Below, piece by piece: positions 4,538 through 37,225 of a stretch of 64,000 bases of DNA; position 1 is the first letter of the stretch, and every line of letters starts with the position of its first letter. Position numbers and translations under genes: made by a program. Source of the DNA: Kitasatospora cheerisanensis KCTC 2395 (GTDB lineage: Bacteria > Actinomycetota > Actinomycetes > Streptomycetales > Streptomycetaceae); the NCBI RefSeq assembly GCF_000696185.1, contig NZ_KK853997.1, forward strand, positions 6,739,245 to 6,803,244. Direction: 5' to 3'. The notes beneath the pieces are model-generated. The model was not told the DNA's origin, did no database searches, and saw only the letters and a program-made list of their open reading frames with translations.

Positions 4538-5149
4538 CTATCGGTCCGGCCGGCCCAGGAAGTCGCGCCAGAACGGCACGGTCGGTCGGGGGTTCCACCC
4601 GGCCGCGTGCCGGTGGCACTCCGTGAACTCGTGCCGGACGTAGTCGGCGAGTTCCTCGCCGTAGCAGACGATGTCCGTGCCCCAGACGGACAGCACCGGG
4701 TGCCCGTGGGTTCCGCGGCCGGCCGGGAGGAAGCGGTGCGCATAGAGCGGCACGAGCCGGGGCACCGCGGCCAGTTCCTGCTCGGCGAGCGCCCGGGCCG
4801 CGTCGAGCTCGGCGGGGCGGACACCCCACGAAGGGTGCCAGTAGCCGTGGTCGACGGAGGACAGCACACCCTCCGCCGGCCACGCGAGATGGGAACGGAG
4901 CTCCTCGGGACTCCCGCTGCGCCAGTCCGGCCACGGCTGGTCCCAGGTCGCGCCCTCCTGGGGCGGCGAGGCGACCGGCAGGCCCGCCGCGAGGAAGGCC
5001 CGATGGTCGTCGGAGAACCGGAACCCGTACGTCGCCTCGATGCGCTCGAACTCCTCCTCGCTGAGGCCGGGTTCGATGGTGCAGCAGTCCGCCTTCCGCA
5101 GCCGCCGGGCGGCTTCGGCCCCGAGGCGGGCCGCATCTCTGTCGATCAC
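4538..5149 (-). CDS. SMI1/KNR4-like (SUKH-type) protein
   Basis: A 203-residue protein with the SMI1/KNR4 signature: an acidic helix (GLSEEEFERIEATYGF), then FSDDHRAFLAAGLPV, then W-P-D-W-R and later the VWGTDIVCYG strand. In bacteria this superfamily supplies immunity proteins against toxins and also stand-alone cytosolic proteins of unknown role. No toxin gene is adjacent, so an immunity role is not supported. It lies just downstream of the DUF397 genes on the same strand, separated by 46 bp. Confidence 0.8.
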   Translation of the reverse strand: MIDRDAARLGAEAARRLRKADCCTIEPGLSEEEFERIEATYGFRFSDDHRAFLAAGLPVASPPQEGATWDQPWPDWRSGSPEELRSHLAWPAEGVLSSVDHGYWHPSWGVRPAELDAARALAEQELAAVPRLVPLYAHRFLPAGRGTHGHPVLSVWGTDIVCYGEELADYVRHEFTECHRHAAGWNPRPTVPFWRDFLGRPDR

Positions 5150-5195
5150 AGCCCCGAGACCAGCCTCCGGCCGACCGCCTGCGGGCCAGGCCGTG

Positions 5196-5402
5196 TCAGG
5201 TTCGGTCCTCGGCCTGGAAGGCGCCTTGGGCTGCGGCGGTGATGAAGGCGGTCAACGCCTCGGGGGTGAAGCGGAGTTGGGGGCCGTGGGGGCCCTTGCT
5301 GTCGCGGACGGCGCCGTAGTTGGCCATGTCGAGCTCGACGCAGTTCCCGCCGTCGTCGCTGTACGTGCTCTTCACCCAGCGGGTGTGCGGGCTGCTGGTC
5401 AT
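5196..5402 (-). CDS. DUF397 protein, second copy
   Basis: A 68-residue DUF397 protein: W-V-K-S-T-Y-S-D-D-G-G-N-C-V-E, then VRDSKGPHGPQL and a C-terminal FI-x-A-A helix. DUF397 proteins are small actinobacterial partners of XRE regulators and are often linked to development or antibiotic control. Its ATG overlaps the TGA of the preceding DUF397 gene (5399-5402), showing translational coupling. It is about 80 percent identical by eye to that neighbour, so it is a tandem duplicate. Confidence 0.9.
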   Translation of the reverse strand: MTSSPHTRWVKSTYSDDGGNCVELDMANYGAVRDSKGPHGPQLRFTPEALTAFITAAAQGAFQAEDRT

Positions 5403-5611
5403 GCGAGGTCCTCGGCCTGGAAGGCACCCTGGGCTGCGGCGGCGATGAAGGCGGTCAACGCTTCCGGGGTGAAGCGGAGTTGGGGGCCGTTGGGGTCCTT
5501 GCTGTCGCGGACGGCGCCGTAGTTGGCCATGTCGAGCTCGATGCATTCGCCGCCGTTGTCGCTGTAGCTGCTCTTCACCCAACGGGGCCGAGTCGAGTCG
5601 ATGTCGGTCAT
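5399..5611 (-). CDS. DUF397 protein, first copy
   Basis: A 70-residue DUF397 protein with the motif W-V-K-S-S-Y-S-D-N-G-G-E-C-I-E and VRDSKDPNGPQL. The start at 5611 gives a four-base ATGA overlap with the stop of the XRE regulator gene, and its own stop overlaps the next DUF397 gene in the same way. The three genes are thus one coupled operon. By family precedent it should bind or antagonise the XRE regulator encoded just upstream; that is inference. Confidence 0.9.
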   Translation of the reverse strand: MTDIDSTRPRWVKSSYSDNGGECIELDMANYGAVRDSKDPNGPQLRFTPEALTAFIAAAAQGAFQAEDLA

Positions 5612-6441
5612 GCGAGGTCCTCCCGAGTAGCCCGGATCATGGCGAGTGAAGCAGCCGACGAGAGACACTCCACCTGGAGCAGATCGTAGCTTCTGGACCA
5701 AGCCGCGACGACCTCACGATTGCGTTCAACGTGGCCGCGGGCTTGGGACTCTGCGTACCCGATCACCGATCTGTCCGGGAGGGTGAGGATGGTCACCGGC
5801 ATTCGGAACGGGACTGTCTCGGCCAGGTCGAACGGGGCGATCTGAAGGACGATATTCGGGCGGCGTGCGAGTTCTTCGAGGTGAGCCAGTTGGCCGGCCA
5901 TGACCTTCCGCCCTCCTACCGGTCGACGGAGGCACCCCTCGTCCAGCACGGCGTGAATGCGCGGTGATGAGGATTGGTGGTGCAGGTTGCGCTGGCGGGA
6001 TGCCAGGAAGGACACCCGGGCGTCTGCTTGGGCCGCTGTGATGTCGCCGCGGTCAACTGCCGCCGACGCCAGAGCGGTTGCGTAGGCCATGGTCTGGATC
6101 TGGCCCGGCACTACGCTCAGCTGGAAGGTTCTGAGCGCTCGGCACCGCGCCTCGGCCTCCGTGAACTCCGTGAAGCCTTCCAGCAGGCTGGCGTTGGTGT
6201 ACTGCCGCCACAACTGCTGGAAGCGTGCGCCCGATTCGAACACCTCGTCGGCTTTGACCGCGAAGTTAAAGGTGATCGTGCGCTTCCCGCGTTCGATGTA
6301 CGAGATGAGGCCGTTGGAGTACCCCATGCGTCGCGCCAGGTTGACCTGTGACCAGCCGCGGGCCTCGCGTGACCTGCTGAGCTCGCGGCCGAAGCGCAGG
6401 GCGGGGGAGGTGACGGCGTCGACTTCTTGGTCGATCTCCAT
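5608..6441 (-). CDS. XRE-family regulator with DUF5753 domain
   Basis: A 277-residue protein. Residues 15-70 form a Cro/C1-type helix-turn-helix (LSRSREARGWSQVNLARRMG, then NGLISYIERGKRT). Residues 95-270 form the DUF5753 sensor-like domain typical of Streptomyces (VPGQIQTMAYA, the FLASRQRNL helix, and DRSVIGYAES). This architecture, followed by DUF397 genes, matches the WhiJ-like group, whose members repress genes until the DUF397 partner relieves them. The gene is divergent from a small ORF pair starting at 6570, and the 128-bp gap should hold both promoters. Confidence 0.9.
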   Translation of the reverse strand: MEIDQEVDAVTSPALRFGRELSRSREARGWSQVNLARRMGYSNGLISYIERGKRTITFNFAVKADEVFESGARFQQLWRQYTNASLLEGFTEFTEAEARCRALRTFQLSVVPGQIQTMAYATALASAAVDRGDITAAQADARVSFLASRQRNLHHQSSSPRIHAVLDEGCLRRPVGGRKVMAGQLAHLEELARRPNIVLQIAPFDLAETVPFRMPVTILTLPDRSVIGYAESQARGHVERNREVVAAWSRSYDLLQVECLSSAASLAMIRATREDLA

Positions 6442-6569
6442 GATCAGGGCCCCTTTGACACGCCGGAACAGTCAACCGTCAAGGTCTGGCGATCGTACGC
6501 CATTCTGTCGATCCTGGTTGCACAGACAGTGATCGACGGCGGGCGCAACTTCGGTACGGAGCAACGATC

Positions 6570-6734
6570 ATGACGACAGGTCAGCCAGCAGAGCCGGACC
6601 CCGGGTCGGAGGAGCCGGAGCAGGGGGCGCCGGAGCGGGGCGCGGAGGCGGAGGAGGTCGTGCCCGACCTCGCGGAGCGCGTCCGGCGGCGGAATCGGAA
6701 CTCCCGCATCAACGGCGCCGGACGGAAGTCGTAG
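6570..6734 (+). CDS. Small acidic/basic protein, 54 aa
   Basis: ATG at 6570 with GGAG eight bases upstream. The product is two-part: an acidic, Pro/Glu-rich first half (residues 8-29) and a strongly basic end (ERVRRRNRNSRINGAGRKS). It ends 26 bp before the next gene, which has its own strong ribosome binding site, so the two are probably co-transcribed. Reading it as a peptide precursor is possible but no maturation enzyme is nearby. The family is not recognised. Confidence 0.5.
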   Translation: MTTGQPAEPDPGSEEPEQGAPERGAEAEEVVPDLAERVRRRNRNSRINGAGRKS

Positions 6735-6760
6735 CGCCCGCCCGGGAGGAGAGGTGGTCC

Positions 6761-7336
6761 ATGGAGGACGAGAACGAGGACGGCAGGCAGCGGGCCCGGT
6801 GGATCGCCAACGCGTTGAGCAGGCTGGCCGGCCGGCCCGCCGTCACCACGGAGGCGAGGGGCGGCGGCATCAGGGTGACGCTGCGGGTCACCGCGTCGGA
6901 CCGGGCGGCGGAGCTGACGGCCGCGCTCCTGCGGGTGCTGCGGCGGGGGGACCGGTTCGGGCACGCCGACTCCGCGCGGTGGGAACGGGTCTGGGCGGAG
7001 GTCGACCAGACGTGCAGGGAGGAACGGGACATGCGGATGACGCCGGTCGAGTACTACCCGCACGGGCACGCCGGGCTGCCGTGGCACGCGGTCGGGGAGG
7101 ATCCTGACGGGCTGTTGGTGGCGGAGACCGGGGACGGGGTGGCCCTCGCGCTGGCGACCGACCCGCGCAAGGTGTTCGTTCTGCCGCCGGACGAGTGGGC
7201 GGACCTGTGCGAGGCCGCCAAGGCCGGCCGGTTCGACCAGTTGCTGGGCGGCGGCGCACTGTGCGCGGATCCGCGCCGTTGGGGCGGCCGGGCGGTGGAA
7301 GGGGCCGGTGCCGGGGCGGAGTTGCTGACCGCCTGA
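6761..7336 (+). CDS. Hypothetical protein, 191 aa
   Basis: The start ATG at 6761 follows GGGAGGAGAGG, a strong ribosome binding site. The protein is soluble. It begins with an acidic/helical region (residues 1-60, many Arg and Ala), has a central segment with YYPHGHAGLPWH, and ends in a compact region with KVFVLPPDEWADLCEAAKAG. No catalytic pattern was recognised. It is probably an operon partner of the 54-residue ORF upstream and is closed by a terminator at 7353-7385. Confidence 0.65.
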   Translation: MEDENEDGRQRARWIANALSRLAGRPAVTTEARGGGIRVTLRVTASDRAAELTAALLRVLRRGDRFGHADSARWERVWAEVDQTCREERDMRMTPVEYYPHGHAGLPWHAVGEDPDGLLVAETGDGVALALATDPRKVFVLPPDEWADLCEAAKAGRFDQLLGGGALCADPRRWGGRAVEGAGAGAELLTA

Positions 7337-7352
7337 GGTTCCGCGTCGCGGC

Positions 7353-7385
7353 GAGGCCCCGCCCGGACGGACGGGGCGGGGCCTC
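7353..7385. terminator. Bidirectional hairpin terminator
   Basis: A perfect 12-bp inverted repeat (GAGGCCCCGCCC at 7353-7364 and its complement at 7374-7385) with a 9-nt loop lies between two convergent genes. There is no strong T tract, as usual in Streptomyces, so it probably serves both directions. Confidence 0.85.
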
Positions 7386-7400
7386 GGCTGCGGCGAGCGG

Positions 7401-8309
7401 TCAGCGGGCGCCGCGGATGCTGTCGATGATGCGGGTCCAGTTGTCGCCGCCGTGGCCGTTGTCGATGGCCTGGCGGTAGTGGGCCTGGACGGCCAGGGGG
7501 AGGGCGAGGTCGAGGCCGAGGGAGGTGCTGGTCTCGACGATGTGGTCGGCGGTCGCGCCCATCATGGTGACGGTGCTGAGGTGGCCGGGGTGTTCGCCGG
7601 CGTCGAGCGCGGTGCCCGGGTGCTGTTCGCCGGCCCGGAGGATGGCGCCGATGGCGTCGGCGGAGGCGAGCAGCTCCGGCAGGGCCTCGGCGGCCTTCAG
7701 GCCGGCGGTGCCGAGCATCGCGGTGGCGTGCATCAGGCCGGACAGGGTGGTGAGGAAGACCGCCAGTTGGGCCTGGTACATCATCTGGGCCAGGCCCGGG
7801 TCCTCGCCCAGGTACCTGGGCGCGCCGAGCAGCGCGAGGACGGCGCGGTGACGGTCCATCAGGTCGCGGCCGCCGCTGTAGTAGACGTGCGCGGCCGGCG
7901 TGCCGACCATCGGGGCGGGGACCATGACGCCGCCGGTGAGGAAGCCCGCGTCGTGGCGGGCCGCCCAGGCGGCGGCCTCGCGCGAGCGGTCGGGGGTGTC
8001 GGAGCCGAGGTTGACGAGGGTCCGGCCGGCGAGCGCGCCGGTGGCGGGGCCGAGGACGTCGTACATCGCCGGGTAGTCGGTGAGGCTGAGGACGACGAGG
8101 CCGCTCGCCCGCACCGCCTCGGCCGGGGTCGCGGCGAGGGCCGCCCCGTCGGCGACGAGGCCGGCGGCCCGTGACGGGGTGCGGTTCCAGACGGTGACGG
8201 GGTGGCCGGCGGCGAGCAGGGTGCGGGTCATCGCCTGCCCCATCGGGCCGAGGCCGATCACGGTGACGGCGTCGAACTCGGATGCCAGGTCGGGCTGTTG
8301 TTCGTTCAC
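7401..8309 (-). CDS. Imine reductase-like NAD(P)-binding oxidoreductase
   Basis: A 302-residue protein with an N-terminal Rossmann fold (VIGLGPMGQAM) and the helical C-terminal half of the 6-phosphogluconate dehydrogenase/beta-hydroxyacid dehydrogenase superfamily. Several positions match imine reductases: GGVMVPAPMVGTPAAHVYYSG, EDPGLAQMMYQAQL and GHGGDNWTRIID. Such enzymes reduce cyclic imines with NADPH. The start chosen is GTG at 8309. A GGAGG lies only one base before it, so a leaderless transcript is possible. It is divergent from an HxlR regulator and shares the operator at 8343-8369, which suggests control by that protein. Confidence 0.85.
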   Translation of the reverse strand: MNEQQPDLASEFDAVTVIGLGPMGQAMTRTLLAAGHPVTVWNRTPSRAAGLVADGAALAATPAEAVRASGLVVLSLTDYPAMYDVLGPATGALAGRTLVNLGSDTPDRSREAAAWAARHDAGFLTGGVMVPAPMVGTPAAHVYYSGGRDLMDRHRAVLALLGAPRYLGEDPGLAQMMYQAQLAVFLTTLSGLMHATAMLGTAGLKAAEALPELLASADAIGAILRAGEQHPGTALDAGEHPGHLSTVTMMGATADHIVETSTSLGLDLALPLAVQAHYRQAIDNGHGGDNWTRIIDSIRGAR

Positions 8310-8342
8310 GCCTCCATGCTCGGCGAGTACCGCTAGGCTCGG

Positions 8343-8369
8343 AAGTACCCACTGTTTTCTGCGGTACTT
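8343..8369. promoter_or_regulatory. Inverted-repeat operator for HxlR regulator
   Basis: A perfect 7-bp inverted repeat, AAGTACC (8343-8349) and GGTACTT (8363-8369), with a 13-bp spacer, lies in the gap between the divergent oxidoreductase and HxlR genes. A third half-site, GAGTACC, is at 8325-8331. HxlR-type regulators bind as dimers to widely spaced palindromes with GTAC cores, so this is the likely shared operator. Confidence 0.65.
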
Positions 8370-8393
8370 ACCTTTTCGTAAGGGGGACGGGCG

Positions 8394-8786
8394 ATGGCCA
8401 GGGCGCCACGACAGGGGCCGTACATCTGCGGCATCGACGCCGCGCTCGACGTGGTGAGCGGCAAGTGGAAGGGCCTGATCCTCTGGGAGCTCGACAGCCA
8501 CGGCGTGCGCCGCTTCGCCGAACTCCGGCGGGCCCTGCCGGGCGTGAGCGAGAAGATGCTGACGCAGCACCTGCGCGAGCTGGAGGAGGACGGCCTGGTC
8601 CACCGCGAGGTGTACGCCGAAGTGCCGCCCCGCGTCGAGTACTCGCTGACCGAGCAGGGCCGCGCCCTCAACCAGGCCCTCCGCCCGCTCGGCGCCTGGG
8701 GCACCGAGCGGATCCGGCAGCAGAGCATCGCGACGGTGGGCGAGGTCGCGGCCGCCGACGCGCGCGGGCGAGCGCCCCGCGGGTAG
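8394..8786 (+). CDS. HxlR-family winged-helix regulator
   Basis: A 130-residue HxlR/MarR-like winged helix. It begins GPYICGIDAALDVVSGKWKG, placing a Cys at residue 12 in the position used by redox- or quinone-sensing members. It continues with RFAELRRALPGVSEKMLTQHL, the recognition helix region, and a wing with PPRVEYSLTEQG. These proteins usually control a divergent oxidoreductase, and the arrangement here matches that. It may sense electrophiles through the N-terminal Cys; this is inference from the family. Confidence 0.9.
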   Translation: MARAPRQGPYICGIDAALDVVSGKWKGLILWELDSHGVRRFAELRRALPGVSEKMLTQHLRELEEDGLVHREVYAEVPPRVEYSLTEQGRALNQALRPLGAWGTERIRQQSIATVGEVAAADARGRAPRG

Positions 8787-9560
8787 TCAGCGCTCGTCCG
8801 GGGGCAGCAGGAGGACGCCGAGGGCCTGGGCGCAGGTCCGGGCGAGGGAGAGGGTGTGGGGGAGGGTCTCGGCGGTGAGGTGGGCCGGGGTGGAGCGGAT
8901 GGCGAGGGCGAAGCGGGCGGTCGGGGTGCGGTCGAGCACGGGGACGGCGAGGGTGCGGACGCCGGGGGCGGACTCGCCGTCGTTGAGGGCGTAGCCGCGG
9001 CGCCGGGTGAGGGCGAGTTCGGTGTCCAGGACGGCCGGGTCGGTCAGGGTGCGGTCGGTGAAGGCGTCGAGCGGGCCGGTCAGCGGGCTGTCGGCGGGGG
9101 AGGGCCAGGCGAGCAGCACCTTGCCGAGCGCGGTGGAGTGCAGCGGGCGGCGCAGGCCGAGGCCGGTGGAGGGCAGCACGGAGCCGCCGACCAGGATGAC
9201 GGCGTGCGGGCCGGAGCGGATGGCGAGGTCGGCGGTGGCACCGCTGCGGCGGGCGAGCTGCTCGAGTTCGGGGCCGGCCAGGTGCAGTCCGCGCTGGTGG
9301 AAGGTGAGTTGGCCGAGTTCGGCGACGGCCGGGCCGAGCCGGTAGCGGGCGGTGCGCTCGTCCTGGTCGAGGAAGCCGGTGGCGAGCAGGGTACGGGCCA
9401 GGCGGTGCGCGGTGGAGACGGACAGGCCCATCCGGCGGGCGAGTTCGGAGGCGCTGAGGTCGGGCCCGTTGTCGTGGAAGCAGTGCAGCAGGCCGAGGGC
9501 CCGGTGCACCGCCTGGGCGCCGGCCGGCGGTGACTGCAGGGTTCCGGGGCTGGCGGGCAT
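8787..9560 (-). CDS. IclR-family transcriptional regulator
   Basis: A 257-residue IclR regulator. Residues 15-75 carry the winged helix (ASELARRMGLSVSTAHRLAR), followed by the IclR effector-binding domain with LHSTALGKVLLAW and RRRGYALNDGESAPGVRTLA. The ATG at 9560 was preferred because AAGAGG lies six bases upstream; a GTG at 9584 is also in frame. It is divergent from the organosulfur operon that begins with the upstream ORF at 9799, so it may regulate that operon. No sulfur-specific feature is visible in its effector domain. Confidence 0.88.
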   Translation of the reverse strand: MPASPGTLQSPPAGAQAVHRALGLLHCFHDNGPDLSASELARRMGLSVSTAHRLARTLLATGFLDQDERTARYRLGPAVAELGQLTFHQRGLHLAGPELEQLARRSGATADLAIRSGPHAVILVGGSVLPSTGLGLRRPLHSTALGKVLLAWPSPADSPLTGPLDAFTDRTLTDPAVLDTELALTRRRGYALNDGESAPGVRTLAVPVLDRTPTARFALAIRSTPAHLTAETLPHTLSLARTCAQALGVLLLPPDER

Positions 9561-9798
9561 CGCACCTCTTCGGGAGTCGCTCACAGGCGGTCAACTTCGT
9601 TGGGATTCCCAGGATATGGGGGTGATCGCTGCGGGCGTGTGACGGCGGTGTTGCGGGCGAGCGCCGCACTGTGAACAGCGCGTCCCATCATCTGGCAACG
9701 CTTGATTCGGGCGGCGGCGGCGTGGAACGCTCGGTGCATCGGCGGACGAGCGGCCGACACCGGCGCACACCGCCCGGTCCGACAGGAGGGAGCGCGCC
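9561..9798. other. Divergent intergenic promoter region
   Basis: Together with 9799-9922 this is a 362-bp gap between the IclR gene and the first large gene of the organosulfur operon. The section before the upstream ORF should hold both promoters. I could not assign convincing -35/-10 boxes. A strong ribosome binding site, AGGAGGG at 9784-9790, serves the short ORF at 9799. Confidence 0.5.
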
Positions 9799-9837
9799 GT
9801 GACGATGCACCGGCCCCGCCCCTGCTGTTGTCGCTGA
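9799..9837 (+). CDS. Polycysteine upstream ORF (leader peptide), 12 aa
   Basis: GTG at 9799 lies eight bases after a strong AGGAGGG ribosome binding site and opens a 12-codon frame encoding MTMHRPRPCCCR before TGA at 9835. Three consecutive Cys codons stand next to the stop. Short upstream ORFs ending in Cys runs are known in mycobacteria as cysteine-responsive attenuators placed before sulfur-assimilation genes; here the next gene is the first of an organosulfur operon. When charged Cys-tRNA is scarce, the ribosome should stall on the Cys codons and change the fold of the leader downstream. The coding reading is seen; the regulatory role is inferred. Confidence 0.72.
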   Translation: MTMHRPRPCCCR

Positions 9838-9922
9838 CCGCCGCCCCGAACCCCCTTCCCCGTCGCACGGTTCCCACATGGTGGGCCGCCTGTGCGTTTC
9901 CTGAGATTTCCGGAGCCCCGTC
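9838..9922 (+). promoter_or_regulatory. Leader region with hairpin after the polycysteine ORF
   Basis: Between the short Cys-rich ORF and the start of the DszB-like gene lies a hairpin CCCAC-ATG-GTGGG (9873-9885). It can extend with a weaker outer pair, GCAC at 9865-9868 with GTGC at 9892-9895. The ribosome binding site for the next gene (CGGAG) starts about 15 nt further on. A ribosome stalled on the Cys codons would sit about 40 nt before the hairpin. The region could act as a translational or transcriptional attenuator. Confidence 0.45.
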
Positions 9923-10945
9923 ATGAGCCCCGCATCCACCGCCGACGTCGGCGCGCCCACCCACCCCGACACCCTGTGGTTCACCCGCTGCCCGGTGCCG
10001 ACCGCCACCGGCATCGCCGCCGACCGCGGCTGGCTGGCCGAGGAGTTCGCGCCCGACGGCATCGCCGTCCGCTCGCTGCAGGACGTGCCGCCCGAGGTCG
10101 CGGCCGACCACCACTACACGCACGCACTGACCGGGCTCTTCCGCGAGGGCGGCAACGTGCCCGCGCTGTGGGCCCGTTCGCGCGGCGAGCGGACCCGGCT
10201 GATCGGCCTGACCTGGATCGAGGAGCGCCAGACCGTCCTGGTCCGGGAGGGCAGCGGCATCCGCTCCGCCGCACAGCTGCGCGGCGCCCGGCTCGCGGTG
10301 CCCCGGCACCCGATCGGCATCGACTTCTGGCGCGCGATGGCCCTGGCCGGCCACCACGGCGCCCTGGCCTCCGCCGAACTCACCCTGGACGACGTCGAGT
10401 TGACGGAGGTTGCGGCGGAGCCGGGCGGCGGCCAGTGGGAGGCCGAGCTGACCGCCCTGCGGGACGGCCGGGTGGACGCCGTGTACGTGAAGGGCGCGCT
10501 CGCGGTGGAGGCCGCCCGCCGGTACGGCGCGGTGCCCGCCGTGGAGCTGGACGCGCTCCCCGACCGCCGCCACCGGGTCAACAACGGCACCCCGCGCCCG
10601 ATCACCGTGCACCAGCAACTGCTGGACGAGCACCCCGAGTTGGTGGCCCGCTTCGTCGCTGTGCTGCTGCGCGCCGCGGACTGGGCGGCCGAGCGGCCGG
10701 CCGAGGTGGCGCGGATCCTCGGCGCGGAGACCGGTGCCGGACCGGAGGGCGTGGCCGGCGCGTACGCGGCGGGCGGGCACCGCACCCTGCACCCGGACCT
10801 GTCCGCCGACCGCCTCGACCTGCTCGCCCGGCAGGAGCAGTTCCTGCACGCCCACGGCTTCCTCGCCGACCGGGTCGACGTCCACGCCTGGGCCGACCCC
10901 GCCCCGCTGGCCGCCGCCCGCGCCCTGCTCGCCGCCCGCCCCTGA
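9923..10945 (+). CDS. DszB-like sulfinate desulfinase
   Basis: A 340-residue protein with the type-2 periplasmic-binding-protein fold but no signal peptide, resembling DszB (2-hydroxybiphenyl-2-sulfinate desulfinase). The N-terminus TLWFTRCPVP matches the DszB Cys region, giving Cys23. His64 and Arg74 lie in HYTHALTGLFREGGNVP, with the same ten-residue spacing as DszB His60 and Arg70, and the R-x-G-G-x-[IV]-P turn is kept. DszB cleaves an aryl C-S bond of a sulfinate, releasing sulfite. Conservation of all three catalytic residues supports an enzyme rather than a transport protein. It is the first large gene of the operon and ends 25 bp before the lipoprotein gene. The true substrate is unknown. 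Confidence 0.75.
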   Translation: MSPASTADVGAPTHPDTLWFTRCPVPTATGIAADRGWLAEEFAPDGIAVRSLQDVPPEVAADHHYTHALTGLFREGGNVPALWARSRGERTRLIGLTWIEERQTVLVREGSGIRSAAQLRGARLAVPRHPIGIDFWRAMALAGHHGALASAELTLDDVELTEVAAEPGGGQWEAELTALRDGRVDAVYVKGALAVEAARRYGAVPAVELDALPDRRHRVNNGTPRPITVHQQLLDEHPELVARFVAVLLRAADWAAERPAEVARILGAETGAGPEGVAGAYAAGGHRTLHPDLSADRLDLLARQEQFLHAHGFLADRVDVHAWADPAPLAAARALLAARP

Positions 10946-10970
10946 CCTGCCCTTCCCGTTGGAGAGACCC

Positions 10971-12005
10971 ATGCACACCCCCGCCCGCCGGCCCCTGCTC
11001 GCCGCCACCGCCCTGACCGCCGTCGCCGCGCTCGGCCTGACCGCCTGCGGCTCGACCGCGAAGGACGCCGCCGCCTCCGCCGACGGCAAGGGCGGCGCCG
11101 AGGTGGTGCTGAGAGTGCCCGACCCCGGCAACTCCGGCTTCCTCGCCAAGGGAAAGAAGGACGGCTCGCTCGACCGGGCGCTGGCGGCCGTGCACGCCAA
11201 GGTGGTGTGGACGGGCAGCGCCGGACCGTTCGCCCCCGCCGCGCAGGCCCTGAACGCCGATCAACTGGACGTCGCCCAGGGCTCGATCACCTCCGCGGTG
11301 GCCGCGCTCGCCCAGAAGCCCGGGTTCAAGCTGTTCGCGCAGAGCGCCCCGGACGAGGCCGGCGAAGGCATCCTGGTGAAGAACGGCTCCCCGATCACGA
11401 AGGTCGAGGACCTGGTCGGCCGGAAGGTCGCGGTCTCCCAGGGCGGCACCTCCGAGTACCTGCTGCTGAAGGCCCTCCAGAAGAACGGCATCCCCGCCGA
11501 CCGGGTCCAGCGGGTGTACCTGCGGGCCGACCAGACCTCCGGGGTGTTCAACTCCGGCCAGGTGGACGCCTGGGCGACCTGGGCGACCTTCTCCGTCCCC
11601 GCGATCGCCAACACCGGCGCGCACTTCCTCGTGAACGGCAAGGCCGTCGGCAGCGACAACTACGCCGTGTGGGCCGTGCGTTCGGCCTTCGCCGAGAAGC
11701 ACCCGGAGGTGCTGAAGGCGTTCTACGGCTACCTGCACGAGAACGGCGCGAAGGAGAAGGCCGACCCCGCCGCCTACCTGAACGTCTTCACCGACGCCGG
11801 CCCGACCGCCGTCACCCCCGCCGAGCAGCAGGTCGCCGTCGACTTCGGCCGGCAGCGGGCCGTGGACGCGCCGATCACCGCCGCCGACACCGCCCGGTTC
11901 GACGTGGTCGCCGCGTTCTACGCCGAGCAGGGCGTCACCAAGTCGAAGGTGGACGTCGCCCCGCACCTGATCGACGTCGACTCCCTCGCCGGGGCGGCGG
12001 GATGA
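10971..12005 (+). CDS. ssuA: Sulfonate ABC transporter substrate-binding lipoprotein
   Basis: A 344-residue SsuA/NitT-TauT-type binding protein. The N-terminus is a lipoprotein signal peptide ending in the lipobox LTAC, so the mature protein is anchored outside the membrane by the Cys. The fold signatures are visible: VEDLVGRKVAVSQGGTSEYL and the W-A-T-W motif in GQVDAWATWATFS, typical of aliphatic sulfonate binders. The stop overlaps the permease start by four bases (ATGA). It should capture sulfonates or related organosulfur compounds and deliver them to the permease. Confidence 0.88.
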   Translation: MHTPARRPLLAATALTAVAALGLTACGSTAKDAAASADGKGGAEVVLRVPDPGNSGFLAKGKKDGSLDRALAAVHAKVVWTGSAGPFAPAAQALNADQLDVAQGSITSAVAALAQKPGFKLFAQSAPDEAGEGILVKNGSPITKVEDLVGRKVAVSQGGTSEYLLLKALQKNGIPADRVQRVYLRADQTSGVFNSGQVDAWATWATFSVPAIANTGAHFLVNGKAVGSDNYAVWAVRSAFAEKHPEVLKAFYGYLHENGAKEKADPAAYLNVFTDAGPTAVTPAEQQVAVDFGRQRAVDAPITAADTARFDVVAAFYAEQGVTKSKVDVAPHLIDVDSLAGAAG

Positions 12006-12853
12006 GCGCCGTCAGCACCGAGCAGGCGCGGGCCGCCGGGCTGGTCGCCCCGCGCGCCCGGGCCGCCGCCGGCCGGCCGCGCGGCGTCTCGCTCGCCCTG
12101 CGCACCCTCGGCCCGCTCGCCCTGCTCGCCGCCTGGCAGATCTCCTCCGCGACCGGCGTGCTGACCCCCGACGTGCTCGCCTCGCCCGGCCAAGTGGTCC
12201 AGGCCGTCGGCGAGTTGTGGGGCAACGGACAGCTGGCCGACGCGCTGTCCACCTCGCTCACCCGGGCCGCCCTCGGCCTGCTGTTCGGAGCCGGTGCCGG
12301 ACTGGTGCTCGGCGTGGTCACCGGATTCTTCCGGCTCGGCGAGGAACTGCTCGACTCCGCCGTCCAAGTGCTGCGCACCGTCCCGTTCCTGGCACTGGTG
12401 CCGCTGTTCATGGTCTGGTTCGGCATCACCGAGACCGCGAAGATCGCCCTGATCGGCGTGGCCACCTCCTTCCCGATGTACGTGTCCGCCTCCGGCGGCG
12501 TCCGCAACACCGACCGCAAGCTGGTCGAGGCGATGCGCAGCTTCGGACTCTCCCGCGCCGCGGTGGTCCGCGAGGTCGTGCTGCCCGGCGCGCTGCCCGC
12601 CCTGCTGTCCGGGCTGCGGCTGTCGATGACGCTCAGCGTGATCGCGCTGATCGCCGCCGAGGAGATCAACTCCACCGAGGGGATCGGCTACTTGATGGCC
12701 CAGGCGCAGAACTTCTCCCGCACCGACGTGCTCGCCGTGTGCATCCTGATCTACGGCCTGCTCGGCCTGGCCGCCGACGGCGCGGTGCGCGTGCTGGAAC
12801 GGCTGCTGATGCCCTGGCGGCCCGTCGACGGACGGGCGGTGGCCGGACGATGA
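12002..12853 (+). CDS. ssuC: Sulfonate ABC transporter permease
   Basis: A 283-residue permease of the SsuC/TauC type with about six membrane helices. The ATPase-coupling EAA loop is seen as EAMRSFGLSRAAVVREVVLPGALPALLSGLR. The conserved VRTVPFLALVPLFMVWFGI-like helix comes before it. It overlaps the genes on both sides by four bases, so importer subunits are translationally coupled. It pairs with the ATPase encoded next and the upstream lipoprotein. Confidence 0.9.
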   Translation: MSAVSTEQARAAGLVAPRARAAAGRPRGVSLALRTLGPLALLAAWQISSATGVLTPDVLASPGQVVQAVGELWGNGQLADALSTSLTRAALGLLFGAGAGLVLGVVTGFFRLGEELLDSAVQVLRTVPFLALVPLFMVWFGITETAKIALIGVATSFPMYVSASGGVRNTDRKLVEAMRSFGLSRAAVVREVVLPGALPALLSGLRLSMTLSVIALIAAEEINSTEGIGYLMAQAQNFSRTDVLAVCILIYGLLGLAADGAVRVLERLLMPWRPVDGRAVAGR

Positions 12854-13575
12854 GCACTCCCGCCGTCCACGTCCGGGGCCTGCGACGGGTGTTCGGCACC
12901 CGCGCCGTCCTGGACGGCATCGACCTGGACATCGCCCGCGGCGAGTTCCTCGCCCTGCTCGGCGCGTCCGGCACCGGCAAGACCACCCTGCTGCGGATCC
13001 TCGGCGCACTCGACCGCGCCGACGAAGGCACCGTCCTGGTGCCGCCCGCCCGGACGGTCGTCTTCCAGGAACCCCGGCTGATCCCGTCCCGGCGCGTCCT
13101 CGGCAACGTCACCGTCGGCCTGCCGCGCGGCGCCGCCACCCGGGAGACCGGCCGGCGGGCCCTCGCCGAGGTCGGCCTCGCCGCGCACGCCGACGCCTGG
13201 CCCGCCACCCTGTCCGGCGGCGAGGCACAGCGCGCCGCCCTCGCCCGCGCCCTCGTTCGCGAACCCGAACTGCTGCTGCTCGACGAGCCGTTCGCCGCCC
13301 TGGACGCACTCACCCGGCTGCGCATGCAGGACCTGGTCGGCGACCTGTGCCGCCGCCACCGCCCCGCCGTGCTGCTGGTCACCCACGACGTGGACGAGGC
13401 GATCCGGCTCGCCGACCGGGTCGCCGTGCTGCGCGACGGCGCCCTCGTCCGCGACCAGTCGGTGGCCGTCGAGCACCCCCGCGACCCCGCCGACCCCGCG
13501 TTCGCCGCCCTGCGCCGCGCCCTGCTCGCCGACCTCGGCGTGCACCGCGAACCCGCACCGCAGCACGCCAACTGA
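12850..13575 (+). CDS. ssuB: Sulfonate ABC transporter ATP-binding protein
   Basis: A 241-residue ABC ATPase. Walker A is GASGTGKTT near residue 39, the Q loop is VVFQEPRL, the signature is LSGGEAQR, Walker B is LLLLDEPFAALD, and the switch His is in LLVTHDVDEA. The sequence is closest in style to SsuB/TauB. It powers the permease encoded just upstream, whose stop codon overlaps its start. A 27-bp gap separates it from the next gene of the operon. Confidence 0.92.
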   Translation: MSTPAVHVRGLRRVFGTRAVLDGIDLDIARGEFLALLGASGTGKTTLLRILGALDRADEGTVLVPPARTVVFQEPRLIPSRRVLGNVTVGLPRGAATRETGRRALAEVGLAAHADAWPATLSGGEAQRAALARALVREPELLLLDEPFAALDALTRLRMQDLVGDLCRRHRPAVLLVTHDVDEAIRLADRVAVLRDGALVRDQSVAVEHPRDPADPAFAALRRALLADLGVHREPAPQHAN

Positions 13576-13602
13576 CCGACACCCAGCCGAAGAGAGAACG
13601 CC

Positions 13603-14511
13603 ATGACCATCACCGTGGGCGTGCACCGCTCCAACCCGTCCCTGTACCACCTGGCCCGACTCGACTACCTCCAGCAGGAGTTGGCGCCGCTCGGCGAGAG
13701 CGCCGCGTTCCACCACTACACCGACGGCACCAGGACCGGCGGCTACCTCGCCGACGGCACCATCGACTTCGGCGGCACCGGCTCCACCCCGCCGATCACC
13801 GCGCAGGCCGCCGGACACGACATCGTGTACACCGCCGTCTCCGCGCCCCGGCCCGACCACGGGGCGCTGCTGGTCGCCGCCGACGGGCCGATCGCCTCCG
13901 TCGCCGACCTGAAGGGCACCACCGTGGTGCTCGGCATCGGCTCCTGGCAGACCCACCTGCTCGCCAAGGCCCTGCACCAGCAAGGGCTTTCGTACCGCGA
14001 CGACATCGCCGCCGAGCGCCCCGCCGGGGACGAGGCCGAGCGGCTGGCCGACGGCCGGATCGCCGGCTGGATCGCCCAGGGCGCCGAACTCGCCGCTGCC
14101 CGCCGCACCGGGAACTTCCGCGAACTGATCCGCACCGGCGACGTCATCACCGACCGCTCGGTGTTCTTCGCCCGCCGCGAACTCGCCGTCCAGCGGCCCG
14201 AGATCGTCGCGGCCATCGTCACCGCCCTGCAGCGCGCCGACCACTGGGCCGCCGCCCACCCCGAGGAGGCCGCCGCCCTCGCCGCCGCCGACCAGGGCGG
14301 CGAGGCCGCCGACTGGCACACCGCGCTCACCGCGCTGCCCTGGCAACTGGAGCCCGCCACCGCCGAGTTCGTCGCCGAACAGCAGGAGGCCGCGGACATC
14401 TTCCACCGGGTCGGCTTCATCGACCGCCCCGTCACCGTCGCCGACATCCACCTGCCCGCCCTGGAGCAGCCCGTCGCCGACGCCGTCTCCCGCGCCACGA
14501 AGGAACACTGA
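13603..14511 (+). CDS. SsuA-like binding-fold protein without signal peptide
   Basis: A 302-residue protein with the SsuA/TauA-type fold: GTIDFGGTGSTPPITAQAAG, then DLKGTTVVLGIGSWQTHLLA. It begins directly with strand 1 (MTITVGVHRSNPSLYHLARL), so it has no signal peptide or lipobox and should be cytoplasmic unless exported otherwise. It lies between the importer genes and the monooxygenase. Possible roles are an intracellular substrate carrier or a second enzyme recruited from the binding-protein fold, like the DszB-like protein at the other end. It lacks the Cys-Pro-Val-Pro motif, so it is not a DszB-type desulfinase. Confidence 0.7.
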   Translation: MTITVGVHRSNPSLYHLARLDYLQQELAPLGESAAFHHYTDGTRTGGYLADGTIDFGGTGSTPPITAQAAGHDIVYTAVSAPRPDHGALLVAADGPIASVADLKGTTVVLGIGSWQTHLLAKALHQQGLSYRDDIAAERPAGDEAERLADGRIAGWIAQGAELAAARRTGNFRELIRTGDVITDRSVFFARRELAVQRPEIVAAIVTALQRADHWAAAHPEEAAALAAADQGGEAADWHTALTALPWQLEPATAEFVAEQQEAADIFHRVGFIDRPVTVADIHLPALEQPVADAVSRATKEH

Positions 14512-14516
14512 GCACC

Positions 14517-15584
14517 ATGGCCACCGAAGTCCTCTGGTACCTGATCCCCCGCGAGGGCCACTACCCGTGGGAGCCCGAAGGCCGCCGCCCCGTCGACCTC
14601 GGCTACCTCCAGCACCTCGCCGCCACCGTCGAACGGCTCGGCTACACCGGCGCACTGCTCGCCACCGACCAGTACGACGTGTGGACGCTCGGCTCCGCGC
14701 TCGCCGCCGCCACCGGCCCCGGCTTCCAGCCCCTGCTCGCCGTCCACCCCGGACTGGTCTCGCCCACCCTGCTCGCCAAGATGGCGCTCAGCTTCGAGCA
14801 CCTGCACGGCCCCGGCCGGCTCCGCTTCAACGTGGTCAACGGCTCCACCGGGCAGCTGCGCGAGTACGGCCTGCACGTCGAGCACGACGACCGCTACCGG
14901 CTGTCCGCCGAGTACTGGAGCCTGGTCAAGCGCCTCACCAGCGGCGAAGTCTTCGACCACGAGGGCGAGTTCTTCCAGCTGAAGAACGCCGGCGCCTCGC
15001 TCCGCGACCTGCCGCCGCTGCGCGAGGGACACATCCCGCTCTGGTTCGGCGGCTCCTCGCCGGCCGGCATCGAGGTCGCCGCCGAACACGTCGACGTGTA
15101 CCTCACCTGGGGCGAACCCCCGCACCTGCTCAAGGAGAAGCTCGCCCTGGTCCGCGAACGCGCCGCCGCGCACGGCCGCACCCTGCGGCTCGGCCTGCGG
15201 CTGCACCTGATCGTCCGCGACACCGAGGAACAGGCCTGGGCCGCCGCCGACCGCCTCCTCGACGTCACCAGCCAGGCCACCTACGCCCGCCAGCTCGGCG
15301 GACGGCAGGGCGAGGACGGCGTCGGCTGGCAGCGGCAGTTCCGCCAGCACGGCGGCCGGGTTCCGGCCCGGGCCCGCGAACTGGAGACCCACCCCAACCT
15401 GTGGCCCGGCATGAGCCTGTTCCGGCCGGGCCCCGGCACCGCCGTCGTCGGCTCCACCGAGCAGGTCGTCGAACGGCTCCGGGAGTTCCAGGACCTCGGC
15501 GTCGACACCTTCATCCTGTCCGGCAACCCGCTGCTGGAGGAGGCCTACCGGGTCGCCGAGACCGTGCTGCCGCAGCTGCGCTGA
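14517..15584 (+). CDS. ssuD: FMNH2-dependent alkanesulfonate monooxygenase (SsuD-like)
   Basis: A 355-residue bacterial-luciferase-like flavin monooxygenase. It matches SsuD along its length: GHYPWEPEGRRPVDLGYLQ at the N-terminus, RLRFNVVNGSTGQL, the LWFGGSS strand, the diagnostic DVYLTWGEPPHLLKEKL, and a C-terminus LSGNPLLEEAYRV. SsuD uses reduced FMN and oxygen to cleave a C-S bond of alkanesulfonates, giving sulfite and an aldehyde. No flavin reductase partner (SsuE-like) is in the operon, so FMNH2 must come from elsewhere. It is the last gene before the terminator at 15588. Confidence 0.9.
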   Translation: MATEVLWYLIPREGHYPWEPEGRRPVDLGYLQHLAATVERLGYTGALLATDQYDVWTLGSALAAATGPGFQPLLAVHPGLVSPTLLAKMALSFEHLHGPGRLRFNVVNGSTGQLREYGLHVEHDDRYRLSAEYWSLVKRLTSGEVFDHEGEFFQLKNAGASLRDLPPLREGHIPLWFGGSSPAGIEVAAEHVDVYLTWGEPPHLLKEKLALVRERAAAHGRTLRLGLRLHLIVRDTEEQAWAAADRLLDVTSQATYARQLGGRQGEDGVGWQRQFRQHGGRVPARARELETHPNLWPGMSLFRPGPGTAVVGSTEQVVERLREFQDLGVDTFILSGNPLLEEAYRVAETVLPQLR

Positions 15585-15587
15585 CGC

Positions 15588-15629
15588 GACGGGCGGGCGG
15601 GCCGGCCCGATCCGGCCCGCCCGCCCGTC
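15588..15629. terminator. Strong bidirectional terminator
   Basis: A perfect 18-bp GC stem (15588-15605 with 15612-15629) and a 6-nt loop lies between the convergent SsuD and aldo/keto reductase genes. It closes the organosulfur operon and probably serves both strands. Confidence 0.92.
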
Positions 15630-15642
15630 CGTCCGGCCCGCG

Positions 15643-16632
15643 CTACCGGCTCAGCCGGTCGATCTCCGCCAGCTCCGCCGCGGTCAGCGGGCCGGCCGCC
15701 AGCGCGTCCAGGTTCTGGTCCAGCTGCCGCACGCTCGACGCGCCGACGATCACCGACACCACCCGCTCGTCCCGCAGCACCCAGGACAGCGCCAGCTGCG
15801 CCAGGCTCTGGCCCCGGCCCTCGGCGACCTTCGCCAGCGCCCGCAGCTGCGCCAGCTTCGCCTCCGTCAGCGCCTCCTCCTTCAGGAAGTGCCCCACCGA
15901 CATCCGCGAACCCGCCGGCACCTCGCCGGTCAGATAACGGTCCGTCAGCAGTCCCTGCGCCAGCGGCGAGTACGCGATCAGCGCCGTCTGCGTGTCGCCC
16001 ACCGCGTCCAGCAGGCCCTGCTCCGGCTCCCGGTTCAGGATCGAGTAGCTGGCTTGGTTCAGCAGGCACGGCGTGCCCAGCTCGCGCAGGATCGCCACCG
16101 CCTCGCGGTGCTGCTCCGCCGGGTAGTTGGAGATCGCCGCGTACAGCGCCCGGCCCGAGCGGACCGCCGTGTCCAGCGCCCCCATGGTCTCCTCCAGCGG
16201 GGTGGTCGGATCCCACCGGTGCGAGTAGAAGACGTCCACGTAGTCCAGGCCCATCCGCTCCAGCGACTGGTCCAGGCTCGCCAGCAGGTACTTGCGGCTG
16301 CCGCCGTCCCCGTACGGGCCCGGCCACATGTCCCAGCCCGCCTTCGAGGCGATGAACAGCTCGTCCCGGTACGGGCGGAAGTCCTGCGCGAACAGGTAGC
16401 CGAAGTTGCGCTCGGCACTGCCGTACGGCGGACCGTAGTTGTTCGCCAGGTCGAAGTGCGTCACCCCCCGGTCGAACGCCCGGCGCAGCACCGCGCGCTG
16501 CACCTCCAGCGGCTGGGTGTCACCGAAGTTGTGCCACAGGCCGAGCGAGACGGCGGGCAGCTGCACGCCGCTGCGCCCGGCGCGGCGGAAGGTCATCGAG
16601 GCGTAGCGGTCGTCCGCGGCGAGGAAGGTCAT
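15643..16632 (-). CDS. Aldo/keto reductase (YghZ-like)
   Basis: A 329-residue NADPH-dependent aldo/keto reductase. The catalytic tetrad is visible as Asp and Tyr in FDLANNYGPPYGSAE, Lys in FIASKAGW and His in YSHRWD. The SKAGWDMWPGPYG segment is characteristic of the YghZ/L-glyceraldehyde 3-phosphate reductase subgroup, and the cofactor loop VIVGASSVRQLDQNL is kept. Start set at ATG 16632 because the longer frame upstream is not protein-like. It probably detoxifies small aldehydes; a physiological substrate cannot be fixed. A divergent hemoglobin gene starts 107 bp away. Confidence 0.9.
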   Translation of the reverse strand: MTFLAADDRYASMTFRRAGRSGVQLPAVSLGLWHNFGDTQPLEVQRAVLRRAFDRGVTHFDLANNYGPPYGSAERNFGYLFAQDFRPYRDELFIASKAGWDMWPGPYGDGGSRKYLLASLDQSLERMGLDYVDVFYSHRWDPTTPLEETMGALDTAVRSGRALYAAISNYPAEQHREAVAILRELGTPCLLNQASYSILNREPEQGLLDAVGDTQTALIAYSPLAQGLLTDRYLTGEVPAGSRMSVGHFLKEEALTEAKLAQLRALAKVAEGRGQSLAQLALSWVLRDERVVSVIVGASSVRQLDQNLDALAAGPLTAAELAEIDRLSR

Positions 16633-16738
16633 ACCGGCATCCTGCCAGGTGAGCGCCGCGAAGGGGACCAACGGCCCTCCCGCCCGGACACCGCCCCGGC
16701 ATACCCTGACCGGGCGCGCCCAGCACCAGGAGGAAGCC

Positions 16739-17179
16739 GTGGCACTGCCGGACATCACCACCCGGGCCGACCTGGAGTCCGCCCTGCGCCGCTTCTACCG
16801 TGCCGCGTTCGCCGACCCGCTGATCGGTCCGGTCTTCACCGAGGTCGCCCGCCTCGACCTGGAGGCCCACCTCCCGCGGATCACCGACTTCTGGGAGAGC
16901 GCCCTGCTGCGCACCGCCGCCTACCGGGGCAACGCGCTCGCCCCGCACGCCGCCCTGCACGCGATCAGCCCGCTCGGCGCCGAACACTTCGGCCGCTGGG
17001 TCCAGCTCTGGCGCGCCACCCTCGACGGCCGGCACGCCGGCCCCGTCACCGAACGCGCCAAGGCCCAGGCCCAGCGGATCGCCGTCGCCATGCTGCGCCG
17101 CCTCGGCGAGGGCGACACCGGCGGCGGCAGCGGGGGCTTCGTCCCGCTGGCCGCGGTCCGGCTGGCCTCCGGCCACTGA
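16739..17179 (+). CDS. Group III truncated hemoglobin
   Basis: A 146-residue protein starting at GTG 16739, five bases after AGGAGG. It matches group III truncated hemoglobins: ADPLIGPVFTE in helix B-C, then DLEAHLPRITDFWESALL, and the proximal heme-ligand His83 in AEHFGRWVQLW. The Phe-Trp pair in TDFWE is typical. These small globins bind oxygen or NO, and their role in actinobacteria is poorly known. A Gly/Ser-rich tail follows the globin fold. It is divergent from the aldo/keto reductase. Confidence 0.88.
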   Translation: MALPDITTRADLESALRRFYRAAFADPLIGPVFTEVARLDLEAHLPRITDFWESALLRTAAYRGNALAPHAALHAISPLGAEHFGRWVQLWRATLDGRHAGPVTERAKAQAQRIAVAMLRRLGEGDTGGGSGGFVPLAAVRLASGH

Positions 17180-17224
17180 CCACCGGGGCCGCTCCCTCGC
17201 CCGCCGACCCCACGGCACCTCGGG

Positions 17225-17416
17225 TCACTGACCCCACGTCACGTCCTCGCCGGTCTCCACCGGGGCCGGGTTCACCGGCGCGGCCGCCGCGGCCCGCTCG
17301 GCGCGGAGCGAACCGGCGGAGTGGGCGGCCGGCGCGGTGGAGACGCCGAGCAGCACCGCGACGCCGGCGGCGAGCAGTCCGACGAGGGCGGTCCGGGCGG
17401 TGCGGGTGGCGTTCAC
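17225..17416 (-). CDS. Small secreted protein, 63 aa
   Basis: GTG at 17416 with GAGGAG at the right distance. The product has a signal peptide: a basic start (MNATRTART), a hydrophobic core ALVGLLAAGVAVLLGV and a small-residue cleavage region around APAAHSAG. The mature part is only about 30 residues, Ala/Glu/Pro-rich, ending DVTWGQ. It is divergent from the SARP-type gene at 17642. No family is recognised. Confidence 0.6.
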   Translation of the reverse strand: MNATRTARTALVGLLAAGVAVLLGVSTAPAAHSAGSLRAERAAAAAPVNPAPVETGEDVTWGQ

Positions 17417-17641
17417 GAATGTCTCCTCTGCGGAATCGATGGGGGCGCGGTGCCGGTGCCGGTGCGGGCTGCGGGGAGTTCCGGGCCGTCCTGCCGGCAC
17501 CTCCACTCTGGCCCCGCGCCCGGACCCGCGGAAGGGCCGTGGCGTGGACGGAACCTGCACTGGCACAAGCCGTCCACCCGTCCCGCCCCGCGCGCCGCCG
17601 GTTCCCGGCCGCGGGCCGCCATCGCATAGGCTCGACGCACC

Positions 17642-18785
17642 ATGGTGCGGATCACTGTGCTCGGGGCACTCACGGCGCAAGTGGCGGGGGACGCAATCCG
17701 GTTGGGCGGCCCGCGCCAGCGCGCCGTGCTCGCCCGCCTGCTGGTCGCCCGCGGCGCGGCCGTCTCCACCGACCGCCTGATCGACGAGCTGTGGGACGGC
17801 GACCCGCCCGCCAAGGCCCCGCCTCGCTCCAGGCGTACGTCTCCAACCTGCGCCGCCTGCTGGAGCCCGCCCGCGGCCCCCGGCAGGCGCCGCGCCTGCT
17901 GGTCAGCGCCGGACGCGGCTACGCGCTGCGCGAAGTGGCCACCGACGCCGAGGAGTTCGAGGCCCTGACGGAGGCCGGCGAGCCCCGGCGGGCACTCGCG
18001 CTCTGGCACGGCGACGCCTACGGCGAGTTCGCGGACCGGCCGTGGGCCGCCGCCGAGACCGCCCGCCTCGACGAACTGCGCGCCGCCGCCCGCGAGTCGG
18101 CCACCGGGCAGGCCCTCGCCGCGGGGCGGTTCGGCGCGGCCGTGCAGGACGCCACCGCCCTGACCGACGCCCACCCGCTGCGCGAGGAGGGCTGGCGGCT
18201 GCTCGCCCTCGCCCTGTGGCACTCCGGCCGGCAGGCCGACGCCCTCGCCGCCGTCCGCCGCGCCCGCGCCCACCTCGCCGCCGAACTCGGCCTCGACCCA
18301 GGCCCGGCCCTCGCCGAGCTCGAAACCGCCATCCTGCGCCAGCAGTTGGACCGGCTCGCCCTGCCCGCCGGGCCGGCCGGGGGTGCCGTGGAGGCCGGTG
18401 CGCCCGCCGGCGGCGGGGGAGCGGTCGGGCCCGGCGACTCCGCGGGCCGGGGCGGCAGCGGGACGCGTGGGGCCGCGCCGGTCCGGCCGGCCGGGTCGGC
18501 GGGCGGGGTGTTCGTCGGGCGGCAGGAGGAGCTGGCCCTGCTGCGGCGGGCCGCCGCGGCCGCCCGGGGCGGGGTCGGATTCGCGCTGGTCGGCGGGGAG
18601 GCCGGGGCGGGCAAGTCCACCCTGCTGGGCCGGCTCGCCGAGGAACTCGCCGACGGCGGCTGGCGGGTGGCCACCGGACGCTGCCCGGAGAGCGCCGGCG
18701 CCCCCGCCGCCTGGGCCTGGACCGAGGTGCTGCGCGACCTCGCCGCACTCGACCCGGACACCGCCGCCGACCCCGAAACGCCGGC
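17642..18785 (+). pseudogene. SARP/BTAD regulator, frameshifted and truncated
   Basis: The N-terminus MVRITVLGALTAQVAG opens an OmpR-like DNA-binding domain, followed by the bacterial transcriptional activation (BTAD) domain (WHGDAYGEFADRPWAAAE, then AHPLREEGWRLLALALW). A linker and the start of an ATPase domain follow (FVGRQEELALLRRA, Walker A GGEAGAGKSTLL). The frame is broken near 17818, where one added C in the GGCCCCG run restores PASLQAYVSNLRRLLEP. The ATPase stops near ALDPDTAAD, and the sequence then joins in frame to the end of a transporter. The rest of the regulator (several hundred residues) is missing. The one-base break may be a sequencing error; the truncation is not explained that way. 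Confidence 0.82.
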
Positions 18786-27933: not shown

Positions 27934-27966
27934 GGGCCGCGCCGCGCCGACGGGCGCCCGCGCGGG

Positions 27967-34918: not shown

Positions 34919-35142
34919 GAGGCGGCGACCTTCTTCCCGTTCGGGGGCCCGGGCGGACCGGGCGGACGCTGGTCCGTCCACGCCTCGTCGATGTACGCCA
35001 GGCACTCGTCACGCGTGCCCCGGCCGCGGGCGACCTGCCACCCGGGCGGCACCTGCGCGAACGCCGGCCACAGCGAGTACTGGCCCAGCGGGTTGACCAA
35101 CGCCAGGTAGACGGCGTCCGGGTCGTCGAACGGGCTGATCAT
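34915..35142 (-). CDS. mbtH: MbtH-like protein
   Basis: A 75-residue MbtH-like protein, the usual length. The invariant residues are present: NPLGQYSLWPAFAQVPPGW with its Ser, Leu and Trp, then C-L-A-Y-I-D-E-A-W-T-D-Q-R-P. MbtH-like proteins bind adenylation domains and make them soluble and active. It precedes the ABC and NRPS genes in the same operon, so it should serve the single A domain there. Confidence 0.95.
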   Translation of the reverse strand: MISPFDDPDAVYLALVNPLGQYSLWPAFAQVPPGWQVARGRGTRDECLAYIDEAWTDQRPPGPPGPPNGKKVAAS

Positions 35143-35224
35143 CGCGGTCTCCTTCGCGTTCCGGGCTTCCGACAGGGAGCAGATTCCGGGGTTCCGACAG
35201 GGAGTCGAGGGGGCACCGGCGGCG

Positions 35225-37225
<2,001 letters not shown>

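Follow-up and report, generated by a model that had tools for sequence, protein, structure and literature searches.

The window analysed here is a stretch of 64,000 nucleotides from Kitasatospora cheerisanensis KCTC 2395 (contig NZ_KK853997.1, positions 6,739,245 to 6,803,244), and its positions 9923-15584 carry on the forward strand six co-directional, head-to-tail open reading frames (ORFs). Their first product, P0001, is by the tests applied a protein of the DszB clade and not a binding protein. We propose that the genes serve to scavenge organosulfur compounds during sulfate starvation and that imported anions are desulfurized by a modified SsuD and by a DszB-like desulfinase, most likely in parallel; we put the probability of this reading at about two in three. 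The reading draws on computed family membership, conserved residues, a recurring gene block, a sulfur-sparing composition, and the presence of SsuE and a sulfite reductase elsewhere in the genome. That the operon is a variant of the published bds-like clusters, and not a new kind of system, is well supported. Two of the stop/start junctions overlap as ATGA and the other intergenic gaps are 25, 27 and 5 bases, so that the six ORFs very likely form one transcription unit. A preliminary description of the window had placed an operon with DszB-like, importer and SsuD-type genes here, and six ORFs are indeed found at that place; it had omitted the second, signal-less SsuA-like protein (13603-14511) and a divergent IclR gene (8787-9584). 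The genes of the operon are as follows.

9923-10945, + strand, P0001, predicted DszB-like cytosolic desulfinase of 340 residues (Cys23/His64/Arg74/Gly77)
10971-12005, + strand, P0002, SsuA-type lipoprotein binding protein (PF09084; lipobox Cys26)
12002-12853, + strand, P0003, SsuC-type permease (PF00528)
12850-13575, + strand, P0004, SsuB-type ATPase (PF00005)
13603-14511, + strand, P0005, signal-less SsuA-like protein of 302 residues (fold and sequence)
14517-15584, + strand, P0006, SsuD-clade FMN-dependent monooxygenase of 355 residues (PF00296)

Relationship of P0001 to DszB

A search of all PDB sequences returned DszB as the only significant match of P0001 (3.7e-17), and the profile of the P0001 family gave 2e-78 for DszB versus 1.8e-07 for SsuA. 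The first three Foldseek matches of the AlphaFold model of P0001 (pLDDT 88.7) were DszB structures. The model aligned with 2DE3 at Z 31.9 and a root-mean-square deviation of 2.8 over 305 residues, as compared with Z 26.9 for the best SsuA. In a maximum-likelihood tree, a branch with support of 100/99 separated 36 DszB-like and two true DszB rows from SsuA, TauA, P0002 and P0005; in the phylogeny that had been suggested as a check, P0001 thus falls with true DszB and apart from the binding proteins.

Cys23, His64 and Arg74 are present as previously written, and together with Gly77 they align with Cys27, His60, Arg70 and Gly73 of DszB, which have been named as its active-site residues (PMC12168087). 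DszB (hydroxybiphenyl sulfinate (HBPS) desulfinase, EC 3.13.1.3; PDB 2DE2/2DE3) and P0001 therefore have the fold, the clade and four active-site residues in common, as well as the flanking motif CPVP...H(F/Y)T...RxGG, at an overall identity of ~28-30%. Almost all homologs, drawn from several actinomycete and proteobacterial families, retain the catalytic motif. The match to DszB, the only solved relative, is far beyond chance. Cys23 is the sole cysteine of P0001, and exactly one cysteine occurs in 55 of 62 homologs. Since the sole remaining cysteine is the catalytic one in most of these homologs, this argues for function.

Exceptions to the motif are one distant gene of locus L105 and some paralogs from clusters of Sphingomonas, Sphingobium and Burkholderia, which have a DszB-like copy with the complete motif next to these paralogs. 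Three DszB-like paralogs without the catalytic Cys and/or His (L044:6548-7612, L049:7477-8529 and L051:7236-8312) have Ser/Asp, Cys/Asp and Ser/Ile, respectively, at the Cys/His positions, and such deficient paralogs possibly have another function.

P0001 and P0005 share the binding-protein fold, and Pfam and TIGR01728 put both near SsuA, as would be expected if both were non-catalytic cytosolic binding proteins. This is very improbable for P0001, which groups with DszB and keeps the catalytic residues, including the only cysteine amid sulfur-poor proteins. Thi5, MqnD and a 4,5-dihydroxyphthalate decarboxylase have the same fold too, and P0001 could in principle be a cytosolic enzyme that reuses Cys, His and Arg on another group, for example as a decarboxylase-like C-C lyase. 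These proteins are, however, more distant (Z ~18 or less versus 32 for DszB), and the neighbouring genes concern sulfur, which leaves such an enzyme a slim chance.

The sulfur-poor composition extends over the operon. The 1341 residues of P0001, P0002, P0005 and P0006 include 2 Cys and 3 internal Met, where ~12 and ~18 are expected from the other ORFs of the window; some of these ORFs are doubtful in the GC-rich window, so the significance is rough. One cysteine each is found in P0001 (Cys23) and P0002 (the lipobox), and none in P0005 and P0006. Proteins of sulfur starvation in Rhodococcus qingshengii IGTS8 have been described as low in both residues, and DszB of that strain contains a single Cys and lacks Met (PMC8557817).

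The monooxygenase, the importer and a cytosolic SsuA-like protein

P0006 and E. coli SsuD share 43% identity, and P0006 branches with SsuD in the tree (support 93/98). The sulfonate-binding residues W196, R226 and R297 are retained in P0006 and its close homologs, and H228 is also retained in P0006. MsuD loses activity on loss of W195, R225 or R296 (PMC8234197), the equivalents of which are present in P0006. On the other hand, Cys54 is missing, His333 is replaced by Leu, and the score against the NCBIfam SsuD model TIGR03565 is 332 bits versus a cut-off of 518.2, a strict one under which a closer SsuD homolog in locus L097 (476 bits) falls as well. The earlier label of a clear SsuD stands as to the relationship and is slightly too strong as to the score; from its sequence, P0006 is best described as a modified SsuD. 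An assignment as an SfnG-type sulfone enzyme was considered and is disfavoured by the tree and by the sulfonate-binding residues, as the SfnG sequence that was aligned differs from P0006 at the Trp/Arg/Arg positions.

SsuABC are the nearest models for the lipoprotein, the permease and the ATPase, all under the curated equivalog or subfamily cut-offs: P0002 scores 126 bits against TIGR01728 (cut-off 163.5), and the best NCBIfam models are SsuC for P0003 (222 bits) and the aliphatic-sulfonate ATPase for P0004 (215 bits). No DszA, DszC or flavin reductase is encoded within the six-gene operon, as had been correctly stated, and, unlike with DszB, neither dszA nor dszC adjoins the P0001 gene. SsuE is encoded elsewhere in the genome, at C1:3242224 (218 bits versus a cut-off of 164), and another locus of the same genome, L133, carries sulfite reductase-like and CysH-like proteins and an ABC importer, as judged by eye from the sequence.

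The closest sequence relative of P0005 is SsuA (1.1e-28), and SsuA is also the best fold match (TM 0.80) of its AlphaFold model (pLDDT 93.5). P0005 has no signal peptide: its reading frame in the window opens at its ATG, and the copies inspected have no leader and all begin directly at the first strand. Cys and non-start Met are absent from P0005, from 26 of 26 homologs and from a further seven of seven. P0005 was also considered as a degenerate second copy of DszB; this was rejected, since it groups with binding proteins and the C-H-R motif is missing. The preferred assignment is a non-catalytic cytosolic binding protein. Domains of CmpC and NrtC are among its fold matches, ranking behind SsuA and Thi5. 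Like P0005, the regulatory domain of NrtC and CmpC has a cytosolic binding-protein fold and works alongside an importer that belongs to the same superfamily; P0005 differs in being a separate ORF not fused to an ATPase, and in having SsuA as its closest relative in sequence. By this analogy, our preferred guess is that P0005 acts in trans as a ligand-responsive regulator of the importer; alternatively, it may be a substrate carrier.

Recurrence of the gene block and proposed function

DszB-like genes with at least 77% identity occur in about half of the 70 sampled genomes of the Kitasatospora genus, and among 394 genomes of the class, 13 carry a member of the P0001 family according to a profile search. 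The block is conserved in Streptomycetaceae and Streptosporangiaceae, and in further actinomycete families it occurs rearranged. It is kept whole in Kitasatospora, Streptomyces and Embleya, and also in Streptacidiphilus with broken reading frames. The blocks of Nonomuraea, Microbispora and Spongiactinospora contain another SsuD-like clade and a short luciferase-like monooxygenase (LLM) protein, and the operon of Nonomuraea spiralis also holds an SsuE above the curated cut-off. Loci L099, L100 and L103, from other families of the class, are arranged as SsuA, SsuC, SsuB, DszB-like, LLM, SsuD-like, P0005. Both types of monooxygenase are present in genome G600 (L097); the form in Streptomycetaceae therefore seems to have an SsuD-type enzyme substituted for the LLM pair. 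DszB-like genes adjoin SsuD-like genes in Sphingomonas, Sphingobium and Burkholderia too, and relatives in Sphingobium, Burkholderia and rhizobia have SsuD-like, NtaA/DmoA-like or acyl-CoA-dehydrogenase-like genes as neighbours.

Two further loci are described for their gene content. L097:776-12780 is a compact organosulfur region with flavin reductases, a near-canonical SsuD, SsuABC, a DszB-like protein and P0005, which also carries monooxygenases of the P0006 type and of the other SsuD-like type. At 9153-18255 of L105 (genome G668), the divergent DszB-like gene is accompanied by one DszA-like, two DszC-like and one SsuD-like gene, which is a fuller dsz-like set.

The gene order in Gordonia terrae C-6 (GTC6_01620-01585) is binding protein, permease, ATPase, bdsA, bdsB, bdsC, hypothetical protein and binding protein, where bdsA is annotated as a desulfinase, bdsB as an FMNH2 monooxygenase and bdsC as an alkanesulfonate monooxygenase (PMC3868597). 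These genes were up ~30- to 54-fold on benzothiophene versus sulfate in reverse-transcription quantitative PCR, and extracts of E. coli with bdsABC yielded o-hydroxystyrene (PMC3868597). L103 (genome G741) agrees with this cluster in layout, as judged from gene order and annotation and not from sequence. On the same basis, the DszB-like desulfinase, the SsuABC-type importer and the second binding protein are common to the G. terrae cluster and the present operon, whereas one SsuD-clade enzyme here replaces the two monooxygenases, the position of bdsB and bdsC being judged from the L103-type cluster. In R. qingshengii, IGTS8_peg4799-4806 is a single run whose products include SsuA, SsuB, 'SsuA/DszB', SsuD and another SsuA, and these proteins were more abundant in a sulfur-starved dibenzothiophene culture than with sulfate (PMC8557817); this run, whose intervening genes are unlisted, is likened to the operon by gene order alone.

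The similarity in gene content and order to the G. terrae and L103 clusters would also suit a bds-type operon for the desulfurization of benzothiophene or thiophene. This is highly unlikely, since the counterparts of bdsB and bdsC in L103 and Nonomuraea belong to a different LLM clade that is absent here, its place being taken by the SsuD-type P0006, since the operon has no S-oxygenase, and since benzothiophene needs no anion importer.

Under the preferred scavenging reading, the predicted activities and substrates would combine as follows. The SsuA lipoprotein and SsuBC would bring in sulfonate- or sulfinate-type anions. P0001 in the cytosol would hold a sulfinate via His64, Arg74 and Gly77, and its Cys23 would free sulfite and a desulfinated carbon skeleton. 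Using FMNH2 supplied by the SsuE encoded elsewhere, P0006 would oxygenate sulfonates, giving a carbonyl product and sulfite. The substrates of the two enzymes would differ and would enter through one shared importer, and the sulfite would pass to sulfite reductase. P0005 may regulate the importer on ligand binding or carry substrate, and the IclR protein would control the operon. The earlier interpretation, in which either one compound passes through both steps or several sulfur sources have routes of their own, thus holds as regards import plus two predicted C-S-cleaving activities; it has to be modified in that the monooxygenase is a modified SsuD and the operon one case of a recurring module.

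The two enzymes could instead act in sequence. In such a shortened 4S pathway, the monooxygenase would act like SfnG or DszA and make a sulfinate from an imported sulfone or another oxidised organosulfur compound, and P0001 would desulfinate it. DszB-like genes nearly always adjoin some LLM monooxygenase, the product obtained from benzothiophene with the G. terrae operon in E. coli extracts was desulfinated (PMC3868597), and the pocket of P0006 is altered. Nevertheless, P0006 lies in the SsuD clade with Trp/Arg/Arg intact, which are not kept in the aligned SfnG, a sulfone-to-sulfinate enzyme, and this makes parallel routes more likely. Moreover, SsuD chemistry itself frees sulfite, so that no sulfur would be left for the desulfinase. 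We therefore consider the sequential route unlikely, at perhaps a fifth of the total weight.

Several observations weigh against scavenging by two such enzymes. W155, F203 and W228 of DszB are aromatic residues of its pocket for the biphenyl sulfinate. In P0001, W155 is replaced by M139 and W228 by L193, and F203 lies in a loop that is deleted. With these pocket residues changed, the substrate of P0001 is probably not HBPS, and for the same reason we name P0001 a DszB-like desulfinase and not DszB. Because some paralogs are without Cys or His, the DszB-like family is not uniformly catalytic in the manner of DszB. In P0006, Tyr331 is replaced by Asn and the protein ends at residue 355, without the C-terminal active-site tail; in MsuD this tail closes the active site. 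As for composition, P0006 has the fourth lowest Cys+Met content among the 18 LLM domains of the genome, with three lower.

More tentatively, and with perhaps one chance in four, a free ligand sensor or carrier of the P0005 family may link SsuABC to the two desulfurizing enzymes, the DszB-like partner taking a natural aliphatic or small aromatic sulfinate. If this is true, the fuel-desulfurizing dsz and bds systems would have branched off as specialised forms from a system for scavenging sulfinates that is widespread in soil. DszB is known as a slow step of fuel biodesulfurization. A conserved family with the same active site, present in about half of the sampled Kitasatospora genomes and here and there in other actinomycetes and in proteobacteria, would be a natural reservoir of sulfinate desulfinases and would hint at the evolutionary source of DszB. 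The proposed operon would link the use of sulfinates and sulfonates to one importer and reveal an unstudied cytosolic SsuA-like component.

Upstream region and other genes of the window

The region upstream of the operon contains the following features.

8787-9584, - strand, P0007, IclR-family regulator divergent from the operon (PF01614 and PF09339)
9872-9886, no strand assigned, candidate operator TCCCACATGGTGGGC, 36 bases 5' of the first gene (palindrome consensus TCCCRCnnnGYGGGA)
9683-9697, no strand assigned, weaker second copy of the palindrome TCCCATCATCTGGCA (by sequence; the related loci L025 and L026 also have listed copies)

In the copies examined from Streptomycetaceae and Streptosporangiaceae, and in some further families, the IclR gene lies at the same divergent position. 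The best site of the palindrome has 0-2 mismatches in 36 of 36 regions upstream of the first gene (the window and related loci), and one mismatch at most was reached in 24 of 2000 shuffles of the upstream region of the window. As the upstream regions are mutually related, the support is moderate, and the palindrome at 9872-9886 is regarded as a candidate operator at that strength. An Rfam search of 5000-18000 gave no match, and scans of 9560-10000 for sigma-70-type promoters and terminators found none.

Elsewhere in the window, 5608-6441 encodes a regulator with a helix-turn-helix and DUF5753, and a divergent pair at 7401-8786 consists of a reductive-aminase-like NAD(P)-binding protein and an HxlR-like regulator. 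Biosynthetic genes at 27118-40227 include an enoyl-CoA-hydratase-like ORF (27118-27933), a non-ribosomal peptide synthetase protein with condensation and AMP-binding domains (27967-32883) and a chalcone-synthase-like protein (37226-38329); they may be of the dihydroxyphenylglycine type.

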